From: Cryoendolithus antarcticus
Lineage: Eukaryota; Ascomycota; Dothideomycetes; Cladosporiales; Cladosporiaceae
Length of the DNA: 64,000 bases
Assembly (NCBI GenBank): GCA_002077065.1
Contig: NAJO01000033.1
Location: 434,001-498,000 of the forward strand
Reading direction: 5' to 3'
Shown here: piece by piece, positions 51,741-56,149 of the stretch
How the letters are laid out: the number at the start of each line of letters is the position of its first letter
Numbering within the stretch: the first letter of the stretch is position 1
The notes under the pieces: model-generated
Databases searched by the model: none
Told to the model about the DNA's origin: nothing
Seen by the model: only the letters and a program-made list of their open reading frames with translations
Position numbers and translations under genes: made by a program

Positions 51741-53499
51741 CTAAGGTTTGGATCCGTCACCCTCTGCCTCATAAACATCCTTGCACCGCAGGCACGCGAT
51801 CAAGAAGCATTTCTTGCATTCATAGCTGAACCCCTTGCCTACAATATCGACGGGCTTTCTCCTTCGCAACGGCTTCGCCACGTGACCTGCCTTCTTCAGT
51901 GCGTAAGGCTCGACGTGTGTCGTGCAGCGGTTGCACTCCATCAATGTCAGATCGCCATGATAGTAGCCATCAGGTTTCGGATCGAAGAGGGCGAAGTTGT
52001 GGTTACAAGACCATACTTGAGTGTGGAGACTGTCGTCAGGCTCTTCACCGAAGTTCTCTTCTGCACCTGCCCAGCGACGTGCTCCGCCAGCATCGAGGTT
52101 ACGTGTGAGTTGTGACAGGTTGCCAAGGCCGTCAGGGGAGCCTTGTGGAGCTTGTGCGTTCTCGATGGCTGTAGTGGCCTCTTGCGTGGGTGTGTGCGCG
52201 GCGTTCGCACTCGCGTTGGTAGCCGTCACTGCGCCAGCGAGAGCTATATTCGGCGCTGTAATTTCGTCTTCAGACTCATCAGATTCATCCTCGTCACCAC
52301 CCTCTTCAGAGGAATACTCGGCTTGCATCTCAGCACAATCGCCGTTGCAATCGCGAATGCTTCTCATGCAGTACCAGCAAAAGTGAGCACCGCAAATGCA
52401 TGCCATGTGTGCGCAGCCGTACATCTTCTTCAGACCATGTTTGCATCTTGGACATCGCCTGTAGCCAAATGACAGGAGCATTGCAGCCTCATGATCTTCT
52501 GCAGAATTGTCGCAGTCACCCGTATGGGCGATCTGACGACAGCGTGTGCAGATGGCAATGTGGCATGTAGGGCACGCGAAGAGCTGCTGCTTGGACTGAG
52601 CAAAATCGTGGACTGTGTCGACAAGCTTATCGATGGAGTTGGCAACTTCTCGTTGTGCGATCGCAACGACGTCTTTCGCCGCCTGAGCGACTGGATGATC
52701 GGAAGACTTGTTGTATTTCACGGCATTGGTCTCGATGAGCTTGACAGTCTCCAAGAACTGTCCAGCCTTGGTGTACCTAGCGACAAGTCAGTAACGATAG
52801 TCGTGATTCTCGAACAATGGAGTGGACGTACGTCGAAGCCTCCACTAGTCGCTGGATGGTATCAAGATCGGTTGGCATGTGGATAACATCGTTGTAGCCG
52901 TGGAGTGAGCTCTGCAGGCTGACGTCCCGGAAAAATCGTGAAGCAGGAGCTTCCCTCATCTTATCAAGAACTTGCCGGAGAATTTGTTGAAGTGACTTCG
53001 GCTTCGAGGCTCCCACATGGCTTGGCACCACGGTCTCAGGGATGAAGACCGAGCATGGCTTAGATGGGCAGTATGTCTTGACGCGTGCGATCCACTCCGC
53101 CAGCTTCATGCGATAAGCATTCACGACTTCTGGTGTCAGACGAGGCAGGATGGTGTGCAGCTGCAGCAACGTACAGCACTGAGGTGGCAACCGATCCTCA
53201 TTGTTCGCTGCTGATGTGAACATTTCGACAAGGCATTCGCTACAGTAGTCTGCTGGGCATGATCGACATGGCTTGACCATGATAGAATCGTCCGGTGTGA
53301 CCTTTACGGTGTCACAGCATACCACGCACGTTCGAGCCGTCGCCTCAGCCGGGGTACCGACCTTTCGCTCGCTATGTGGGACGACAGTGGGCATATCCTT
53401 CACTTCAGCTGGCTGCGCAGTCGCCATCGTGTCGGTAGTGGTCCTTCGCAACATATTGAAAACGCGTCGATATCCAGAAACCTCGGTGTCATCATTCAT
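51741..53499 (-). CDS. RBR ubiquitin ligase with a bromodomain inserted in the IBR domain, two exons
   Basis: Model: exon 1 53499-52832 and exon 2 52776-51741, 567 residues; a 55-nt intron (GTACGT ... ACTGAC ... GCTAG) joins AST-YTKAG in phase. RING1: C58, C61/62, C78, C81, C86, C89, C108/109. IBR zinc ligands: C144-C149, then C291-C294, C299-C302, H307 and C311, a complete C6HC set. Residues of about 165-275 between the first and second pairs form a bromodomain: GYNDVIHMPTDLDTI (the PMDL-type loop), then FLETVKLIETNAVKYN with the acetyl-lysine-reading Asn at 245. RING2: CPRC(331-334), the catalytic-type Cys344 in MYGCAHMAC, CICGAHFCWYC. More Cys pairs follow near the C-terminus (MECNRC, YECKKC, CLRCKD). 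An acidic Glu/Asp/Ser linker separates RING2 from them. By family it would move ubiquitin through Cys344; recruitment by acetylated protein is inference. Confidence 0.88.
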
Positions 53500-54502
53500 G
53501 GCTCAGAGGTCGTGATGAGGTTGTTCATAGGTTTGCAACCATGGTCACCCATAAAGATGGCATGTCGCTCGTGAATGAGAAGTGGTCAGTCAGGGAAGCT
53601 CACCAAAACGCGAAGTGGCGACCTGCAGGAGACTACCGCATTGCAAGAGCAGCAGTGAAGTGAAGGAAGGTACGATCACTTGACCTCACCTCACATCTTA
53701 CGTCGGCTAGGAAGAACCTCATGCCTCTATCGAGCTGCTCACACCGTCCTGCCCAACATATCGTGGCGCGGAACCCAGTGTTTGCAGGTCTCATCTTTGA
53801 TACCAAGCTCAATCAGTGCTGTCTGCTCTGTGGCATAGCTTGCCGGCGTCTCACTGCGACAGCCATGCCGATGGGAGCGGAGGGGTTGAGATTATTCCAT
53901 GGAGTAGAGGCAGCAGTTGATATCTGTCACGTCTTGCAGGACGCCACAACACGAGCTGTTTCAATCTTGACTTGCGGCTCGCCATATCGTAAAACAACAC
54001 CGGCTTTCATCGACAAGTGATGAATGCGGCGCGGCATCGATAACTGGCACGTTCATATGAGACAGGAGGTAGAAAACGCACAGACTACGCACAGCGCGTC
54101 GGCAATGTGCCACACTATGCCGTGTCGGGACGTAGATAAATTGGCTAGCAACATGCCAATCTATCTCACCAAATGACCGCTGCAAGTGCTATTTTCCTTG
54201 GGGCGGCTGAGGATCTGTGCCAACGCAAGTCCCTCGGTGTTGCCCAAGTCATCTCGATCGCCTCCACATCTATCGTGTACCAAACTCTTGTACGGACGTC
54301 GTCCTCTCATTAGAAACTACCCAATGCTACTGCATGAGTTCATGCATGCACTCCGCAATCCGGCGGCGTGGGTAACACGTTCCGACGAAAACCAATATCG
54401 CCGTTCGAGATAGTGGTTGCGATTGCAGCGGTCAAAGTTCTCGATGAACTAGGAGCGCGAGCGCGATCGTAAAGCAGAGCCCACACGACAAAGCTACTCG
54501 CA
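53500..54502. other. divergent promoter region, no gene seen
   Basis: It lies between the start of the RBR gene (minus) and the start of teaR (plus). Short frames only; no RNA gene or repeat recognised. Confidence 0.35.
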
Positions 54503-56149
54503 ATGGCAGTCGCAACCAACGGGCAATGGACTCATGCGGTCCAGCACACAGACTTTAATGCCGACGACTTCAGCCCTGGTCAGCCATCAGAAGCCTTTGA
54601 AGGATACACTAGAAGCAACGGCAAGGTACCCAAGCGCCGCCCCAGCGGCGCCAACATGCAAGGGGAGCGGGATCCGCAACAGCGGAGACCTTCGGTGCAG
54701 TCAAATCAAGGGATCCCACCCCGCAAGCGCTCCACACATACGTTACGGCAGGTAAAGCCTGCGGAAGAGGCTCGAGATGACTCTGCGTGGATTCACCGCG
54801 ACAAGTTGGCTCAGATTGAGATACAGGAGATGGAAGATGCGGGCATGCATGTTCGACAGCCCAGAAGGTCGGGTAGTGCTGGGCCTGGAGCTAATGGGAG
54901 AACGAGTCGGTCAGTCAGTCGGACTGGGCTGAGGAGGCCAGCGAGTAGAGATCAGGTGAACGAGGTAGGAGCTGTGGAGGATGGAAGGGATGAGATGAGG
55001 AGGAAGAGGGTGTCGACTATACCTGCTGCCGATGAGGAAGAGTACGAGCAGGGCTTCGACCCAACGATGGATGCGGAGCTAAGAACGCCTGAAGAGGTGG
55101 CAGCAGAGCAGCAAATTTACCGTCAGCACATGCTTCGACCCAGTACGTCGAGGATACCGATCTCGAAGCTTAGTCCGGTGCCGGTGCCTTCAACTGTGGT
55201 GGACCGCGAGTCACCTTTGACGAGGAGCAGGAATGGGAGCGGTGCTTGGAGCAGTCATTTCGATGAGCTGCAGTATGCGAGAAGGGCAAGAAGCGGAAGT
55301 AATGGCAGTCATGTCTTGCTCGATGATGGAGATGGAGTGCGCACACCATCACGCCCGACAAGCTCACACATCCGCCAGTCCAACGACTACAACACGTCAA
55401 ATTCGCCACCGAAGGCACGGATGCCGAACAAGGATACTCCGACCTCAGGTGCTCGCAAGGCCTCTACGAATACACACGTCACAGGTCGGCCACCCTCATC
55501 AGGTGGACCCAAGTCTGTTCGGACGAGCGGCCAGAGCGTTCGTCCACTCTCGAGCTCGGGGAAGCCTCGTCCATCTACGAGCCACCAAAGACCCGAGGGC
55601 GACGCACCCTGGCTAGCGACCATGTACAAGCCAGACCCGCGTCTCCCACCTGAAGAGCAAATGCTACCGACACACGCCAAGCGTATGATGCAAGAGCAGT
55701 GGGAGAAAGACGGCAAGACTGGCACAGCTTACGATCGGGACTTCAGACTGCTGAACGATGAGCCATTAGATAGTCACAAGCCGACTTCGAATACATTAGA
55801 CCCTCAACAGCAGACCTTTGACCAACCGTCTCGGATTTCACCACGCCCTCAGGTGCCACCGAAAGAGAACATCGCACCTGGCACACCAACTGGCAATGGC
55901 TGGCCGCTGGGCAGCCCTTCAAGTCCCGTCAAGAGTGAGGTCGGAAGCACGCGACCTGGCACCAGCGGTGGATATCGCATCACACCCATGATCGCTACGC
56001 CACCGGTGATCAATCTGCCGAGCCCCAGGGGCAGCGCGCTCGAGAACAAGCCCGTGAAGCATAACGCTACGCCGAGGATACCGGACTTTGATGTCGATGA
56101 GAAGGGTGGGAAGGAGAAGAAGGGGTGCATGGGCTGCGTCATTATGTGA
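54503..56149 (+). CDS. teaR: TeaR/Mod5-type prenylated cell-end marker
   Basis: A single exon, 548 residues, MAVATNGQWTHAVQHTDFN. Nearly the whole protein is polar and disordered (Ser/Arg/Pro-rich), with a short acidic helix (AEEARDDSAWIHRDKLAQIE) near residue 95 and a conserved phrase DAPWLATMYKPDPRLPPEEQ around 380. The C-terminus KEKKGCMGCVIM ends in a CaaX box (CVIM) preceded by lysines and another cysteine, which calls for farnesylation. Size, composition and the CaaX end match TeaR of Aspergillus and Mod5 of S. pombe, which anchor Tea1/TeaA at the plasma membrane of growing tips so that microtubule ends can set polarity. It converges on the next gene (210 nt between stops). Confidence 0.82.
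   Translation: MAVATNGQWTHAVQHTDFNADDFSPGQPSEAFEGYTRSNGKVPKRRPSGANMQGERDPQQRRPSVQSNQGIPPRKRSTHTLRQVKPAEEARDDSAWIHRDKLAQIEIQEMEDAGMHVRQPRRSGSAGPGANGRTSRSVSRTGLRRPASRDQVNEVGAVEDGRDEMRRKRVSTIPAADEEEYEQGFDPTMDAELRTPEEVAAEQQIYRQHMLRPSTSRIPISKLSPVPVPSTVVDRESPLTRSRNGSGAWSSHFDELQYARRARSGSNGSHVLLDDGDGVRTPSRPTSSHIRQSNDYNTSNSPPKARMPNKDTPTSGARKASTNTHVTGRPPSSGGPKSVRTSGQSVRPLSSSGKPRPSTSHQRPEGDAPWLATMYKPDPRLPPEEQMLPTHAKRMMQEQWEKDGKTGTAYDRDFRLLNDEPLDSHKPTSNTLDPQQQTFDQPSRISPRPQVPPKENIAPGTPTGNGWPLGSPSSPVKSEVGSTRPGTSGGYRITPMIATPPVINLPSPRGSALENKPVKHNATPRIPDFDVDEKGGKEKKGCMGCVIM

Follow-up and report, generated by a model that had tools for sequence, protein, structure and literature searches.

The window analysed here is a 64,000-nucleotide stretch of the genome of Cryoendolithus antarcticus (contig NAJO01000033.1, positions 434,001 to 498,000), and its minus strand carries a gene for a predicted RBR ubiquitin ligase with a bromodomain nested inside the IBR zinc domain (Table 1). 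Its two exons, joined, encode 567 residues plus a stop codon, and the intron between them has GT..AG borders and a CTGAC motif near its 3' end. An earlier note on this DNA had described the nested architecture. Its central claim stands, since the insert was found in 36 of 53 aligned rows of the protein family, the window included, and the gene has a second copy in the same genome.

All eight C6HC ligands of the IBR were present where the earlier note had placed them (C144, C149, C291, C294, C299, C302, H307 and C311), and a loop of 141 residues separated the second ligand from the third. The Pfam Bromodomain profile matched residues 174-257 within this loop (E 3.8e-14, 52.8 bits, cut-off 21.7), so the nested bromodomain did not fail in the profile search, and the first and second ligand pairs are indeed parted by it. 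The four-helix fold of a bromodomain was seen in the predicted model of the relative P0001, whose helices correspond to residues 170-282 of the window protein after renumbering by 15; by this model, about 20 residues would separate C149 from the start of the first helix, and about 9 the end of the last helix from C291. When the full protein was compared with the Pfam IBR profile, the match (E 1.1e-6, 29.1 bits, cut-off 24.3) had its best stretch over RING2 (328-362), and when the insert was excised from the RBR piece, the best stretch was the rejoined IBR (E 1.1e-9, 38.7 bits).

By its RING1, IBR and RING2, the protein is assigned to the RBR family, and ligase activity is predicted for it. The cysteine at position 344 was kept in 52 of the 53 aligned rows, the remaining row (P0026) being truncated, and a profile of 14 insert-free relatives matched ARIH2 across the whole RBR (E 1.5e-11). 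RING1 has eight cysteines available (58, 61, 78, 81, 86, 89, 108 and 109) and no C3HC4 histidine; it thus departs from the strict letter pattern, and we infer the set of zinc ligands; the RING1 fold was matched in a fold search with the insert-free relative P0025. The view that both RINGs are intact therefore held for RING2 with Cys344 and needed refinement for RING1. The C-terminal Cys-rich domain displayed the pattern LDAGG..RW..FGEEP..WSCxH..ECNRC..CxxC..CxxC, with many columns at least 90% conserved whether or not the bromodomain was present; it may be one more zinc domain of the ligase family. Searches of the relatives P0001, P0025 and P0043 against NCBIfam produced no match.

A search of the genome (46.97 Mb, 149 contigs) located the second copy of the ligase gene on contig 68, with both exons present (83% and 91% identical) and with a 55-nt intron that retained GT, CTGAC and CTAG. 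Given this copy, its conserved intron and the relatives, the nested architecture is no accident of the gene model. Between the two copies, the one pair from which selection was estimated, the ratio of non-synonymous to synonymous substitution rates (dN/dS) was 0.073 in the bromodomain (22 synonymous and 6 non-synonymous changes), 0.066 in RING2, 0.136 in RING1 and 0.078 in the C-terminal domain. Values were higher for the N-terminus (0.45), the stretch 116-143 (0.40) and the acidic linker (0.57). Non-synonymous changes were rarer than the numbers of sites predict in the bromodomain (Fisher p 3e-10) and in RING2 (p 1e-5; linker, p 0.17). In this pair, the bromodomain is constrained about as strongly as the catalytic RING2. 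Bromodomain loci of the genome were often paired, with near-equal scores on different contigs, which together with the two ligase copies suggests a duplicated or hybrid genome.

The family alignment was made from 52 database proteins and the window protein, drawn from all 30 matches of one public-protein search and 27 of the 28 of another; a frog BRD3-like match (P0053) was kept out. Scoring in these searches was limited to the candidates with the most shared words (7997 and 7992), which means that they do not show the architecture to be absent elsewhere. A public homologue from Rachicladosporium sp. CCFEE 5018 matched at 89%. At E <= 0.001, the Pfam bromodomain was found in the 36 insert-bearing rows and the Pfam IBR in 48 of the 53. 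The loop between IBR ligands 2 and 3 measured 110-145 residues in the insert-bearing rows, and among the other 17 it measured 21-37 residues in 14, with the fragment P0052 lacking the region. Long loop inserts free of a Pfam bromodomain occurred in P0051 (147 residues, several of them cysteines) and P0049 (90 residues), which were not counted as bromodomain rows; with other inserts at the same place, the loop seems insertion-tolerant.

Carriers were named in Rachicladosporium, Oleoguttula, Friedmanniomyces, Saxophila, Pseudocercospora, Zasmidium, Fulvia, Neohortaea and Meristemomyces. Six were looked up, of which five belong to the Mycosphaerellales (Friedmanniomyces, Saxophila, Zasmidium, Neohortaea and Oleoguttula) and one to the Cladosporiales (Rachicladosporium). 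The named non-carriers were Cladosporium (Cladosporiales), Ascochyta and Macroventuria (both Pleosporales) and Trichoglossum (Geoglossomycetes). A 52-row tree, built with the insert columns removed and P0052 omitted and rooted on Trichoglossum, united the carriers and the Cladosporium-like rows against the Pleosporales-type rows (99/95). Trees placed the Cladosporium-like rows inside the carriers, with a minimum of two changes forced by supported branches, and P0029, which has the insert, adjoined the insert-free group in the 52-row tree (97/91). The favoured and simplest history is one gain followed by a loss in the Cladosporium-like rows. The approximately unbiased (AU) test did not reject the carriers as a single clade (p 0.165), so the loss is favoured, short of shown; the tree used for it omitted P0050 and P0051 for their long branches, P0026 and P0029 because less than half of each was filled, and the fragment P0052, and with P0029 it gave up evidence for loss.

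The asparagine proposed to contact acetyl-lysine was confirmed as N245 in the motif AVKYN, and YN with a nearby histidine was kept in 30 of the 36 inserts. The correspondence of insert residues to the pocket positions of human bromodomains is our assumption. On that basis, among 32 non-redundant inserts, L212 was kept in all 32, F190 (the Phe of the WPF shelf) in 31, A241 in 30 and Tyr244 in 27, and the gatekeeper position 252 was V or I in 31.

The kinship of the bromodomain was less clear. Among PDB sequences, the window bromodomain was best matched by BRD4, with the best stretch in its second bromodomain; a fold search with a close relative ranked bromodomain 1 of Bdf1 at the top, tied with others; and with the family profile, polybromo and TAF1 ranked first. 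L003, a BET protein of the same genome, contains two bromodomains and an extra-terminal (ET) domain, and an xFF shelf with a histidine four or five residues beyond the Asn was common to the inserts and its bromodomain 1. When the family hidden Markov model was run on the genome, the bromodomain of L001/L002 (a 434-residue frame) scored 70.8 bits, above the 69.1 bits of BET bromodomain 1. Because of this score and the first ranks of polybromo and TAF1, BET kinship is not firm. A bromodomain tree was made from 24 of the 36 inserts and 13 of the 22 own-genome bromodomains scoring above 15 bits; it omitted the second copies L002, L004, L006, L008, L027 and L029. The 24 inserts grouped together (86/84); the BET pair and two small bromodomain genes lay close by, and the fork joining them with the inserts was weak (85/71), with long branches present. 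A BET-type donor is a weakly supported guess. L025 and L028 (G000:C61:397001-402500 and G000:C70:413500-418500), short bromodomain frames found two per contig, also fell near the BET and insert groups with weak support. The bromodomain region of P0007 retrieved only its own record among 460 public-protein candidates, which does not settle the donor or a wider spread.

Table 1. Features of the ligase gene, in window positions
Feature	Position	Strand	Remarks
Whole coding gene, one intron, stop included	51741..53499	-	567 aa; public homologues and second genomic copy
Exon 1: RING1, RING1-IBR helix, first IBR half, 5' part of bromodomain	52832..53499	-	
RING1, residues 58-109	53173..53328	-	Family profile aligned to ARIH2
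RING1-IBR helix, residues 123-137	53089..53133	-	Predicted model of relative P0001 (helix 108-122; P0001 numbering 15 lower)
First IBR half, residues 144-165: C144, C149, stretch SVFIPE	53005..53070	-	
Nested bromodomain, residues 168-282, intron-interrupted	52599..52998	-	Outer limits are our delimitation
Pfam bromodomain core, residues 174-257	52980-52674	-	
Intron within bromodomain, 55 nt; GT..CTGAC..CTAG	52777..52831	-	Same length and signals in second copy
Exon 2: rest of bromodomain, second IBR half, RING2, acidic linker, C-terminal Cys-rich domain	51741..52776	-	
Codon of N245, acetyl-lysine-contacting Asn position	52710..52712	-	
Second IBR half: C291, C294, C299, C302, H307, C311	52512..52574	-	
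RING2, residues 331-370	52335..52454	-	
Codon of catalytic-position Cys344	52413..52415	-	Family profile aligned to GGC of ARIH2 RING2
C-terminal Cys-rich domain, residues 446-567	51744..52109	-	Conserved; no Pfam match at E 0.01

Next to the ligase gene, the plus strand holds an open frame of 558 aa (54473-56149) of low complexity, and its C-terminus, GCMGCVIM, resembles a prenylation (CaaX) signal.

The window protein was compared with known systems. It shares RING1, an eight-ligand IBR and RING2 with a cysteine at the catalytic position with the RBR ligases ARIH2/HHARI, HOIL-1, RNF216 and Parkin, and its insert-free relative P0025 gave fold matches to HOIL-1 and RNF216. As most matches listed by the fold searches fall on one domain, a family missing from them does not count as absent. 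In the ARIH2 alignment, IBR ligands 2 and 3 lie about 15 residues apart, in contrast to the long bromodomain loop of the window protein. As a further difference, it had neither an Ariadne domain nor an NZF or Ubl among its Pfam matches. Additional subfamily-specific domains are described in a survey of plant RBR proteins, parts of which suggest that fungi may give further insight (PMC2904391). The bromodomain resembles those of BET proteins and Bdf1 in its best sequence match, in the tied top fold match and in the xFF shelf, whereas it is a single one, built into an E3, and Pfam found no extra-terminal domain (PF17035) of the kind present in L003. Class VI TRIM proteins (TRIM24, TRIM28 and TRIM33) likewise carry a bromodomain in the same chain as a ligase-type RING, but the passages on them place the PHD-bromodomain C-terminally, outside the RING/B-box (PMC9594046, PMC6487577), while the bromodomain of the window protein is nested within the RBR supradomain. 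For the RING domains of this class, a section of one of these papers states that ligase activity was not found (PMC6487577). Neither a B-box nor a PHD was among the Pfam matches of the window protein (effective limit E about 0.1). PA200/Blm10, compared by description only, has a bromodomain-like region and offers a precedent linking histone acetylation to protein destruction; it is portrayed in the relevant part of the source as a proteasome cap acting without polyubiquitin (PMC7077846), as opposed to the E3 ligase predicted here.

We give a probability of about one half to the reading that this is an RBR ligase that received a bromodomain, perhaps of the BET type, most likely through a single insertion, and that it reads acetyl-lysine to target ubiquitination. 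The insertion would have entered the IBR loop that runs from the second zinc ligand to the third, in an ancestor common to the Mycosphaerellales and Rachicladosporium. The IBR would bind its zinc and close around the insert, with short tethers linking the bromodomain to the catalytic module. Chromatin is the usual place of bromodomain readers, and the bromodomain may bind acetyl-lysine there or on another nuclear protein. The RING1/E2 and RING2/Cys344 machinery would then be held beside the acetylated partner, and ubiquitin would pass from the E2 to Cys344 and on to a substrate. Transfer from the E2 to the RING2 cysteine and then to the substrate is the route given for RBR ligases in the relevant part of a published account (PMC9834252).

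The earlier proposal that the ligase is targeted to, or switched by, acetylated proteins is partly supported, as it fits the Asn retained in 30 of 36 inserts and the purifying selection. In its simplest form, the bromodomain would bring the ligase to acetylated partners; a switch is the bolder form. Several observations weigh against acetyl-lysine reading by the insert. The YN Asn was lost or displaced in six of the 36 inserts (P0009, P0018, P0029, P0035, P0038 and P0040), with the insert still kept; P0010 was without part of the ZA loop, and its bromodomain scored 20.5 bits, below the Pfam cut-off; the WPF shelf reads RFF, and the classical shelf valine position is variable; and residue 233 is Thr in the window protein and Asp in the other 31 of the 32 non-redundant inserts. 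Relatives such as Cladosporium have a bromodomain-free version of the ligase, which makes the insert dispensable for the core enzyme. With the Asn lost or displaced in six inserts and most other pocket residues kept, the acetyl-lysine pocket appears mostly, not universally, retained. Retention of the insert without the Asn, together with the probable loss in Cladosporium, points to an adaptable add-on outside the core enzyme.

A tentative alternative, to which we give clearly less credence, is an allosteric switch, in which the ligand-bound bromodomain would activate or inactivate the ligase by altering the IBR geometry or the access of allosteric ubiquitin, beyond recruiting a substrate. Its strong form is equally doubtful: the catalytic supradomain would have been rebuilt around an acetyl-lysine sensor, whose binding would directly gate IBR-RING2 movement or allosteric ubiquitin. 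In the sections concerned, ubiquitin and ubiquitin-like activators are described as regulating RBR ligases from the RING1-IBR interface, and several of these ligases as activated through the helix between RING1 and IBR and the second strand of the IBR: the allosteric ubiquitin lies on the helix and pairs by its C-terminus with the strand, and E809 of HOIP contacts the C-terminal Arg residues of this ubiquitin and is critical there (PMC9834252). The bromodomain would adjoin this activating site, since the insert starts shortly after the CSVFIPE stretch following ligand 2, which we infer to be the second IBR strand, and the modelled tethers on both sides are short. However, mutation of the equivalent residue of HOIL-1, E383, left allosteric activation unaffected, according to the same passages (PMC9834252), and the P0001 model gives no inter-domain confidence, its junction blocks reaching a predicted local distance difference test (pLDDT) score of only 67-68.

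Less probable again is that the bromodomain fold was kept as a protein-binding or spacer module, with acetyl-lysine reading secondary or lost. The six rows that retain the insert without the YN Asn would suit such a module, as would the invariance, among the non-redundant inserts, of Tyr224 and of Arg188, the latter in the place of the shelf Trp, both of which we take to lie outside the classical acetyl-lysine contacts. Against it, YN was kept in the other 30 rows, the window protein has its own pocket Asn, and F190, L212, A241 and V/I at 252 were nearly invariant. The very improbable explanation of a gene-model artefact, by which two adjacent genes were joined or the IBR and bromodomain were fused by a wrong splice, was rejected and is close to refuted: although the homologous records are apparently also gene predictions, some of them partial, in both genomic copies one open exon holds RING1 with the 5' part of the bromodomain and the other holds its 3' part with RING2, the full Pfam bromodomain runs across the splice site, the intron is kept between the copies, and the domain order is kept across genera.

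Literature searches returned, among the matches listed, no title or abstract opening on a bromodomain within an RBR. The earlier statement that no RBR with an acetyl-lysine reader in its IBR is known was not contradicted by these listings, but public protein records already show both Pfam domains; the architecture is therefore undescribed as far as seen, yet visible in public data. A reader embedded in the IBR and, where measurable, under selection is a natural experiment on the insertion tolerance of this module and on its possible gating by a second modification. Nature also provides ready controls, as some relatives are without the insert and others have the insert without the Asn. If the gating reading were true, acetylation and ubiquitination would be coupled inside one zinc domain. 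The protein is a compact candidate for acetylation-directed ubiquitination, in which acetylation may guide or switch a ubiquitin-attaching enzyme.
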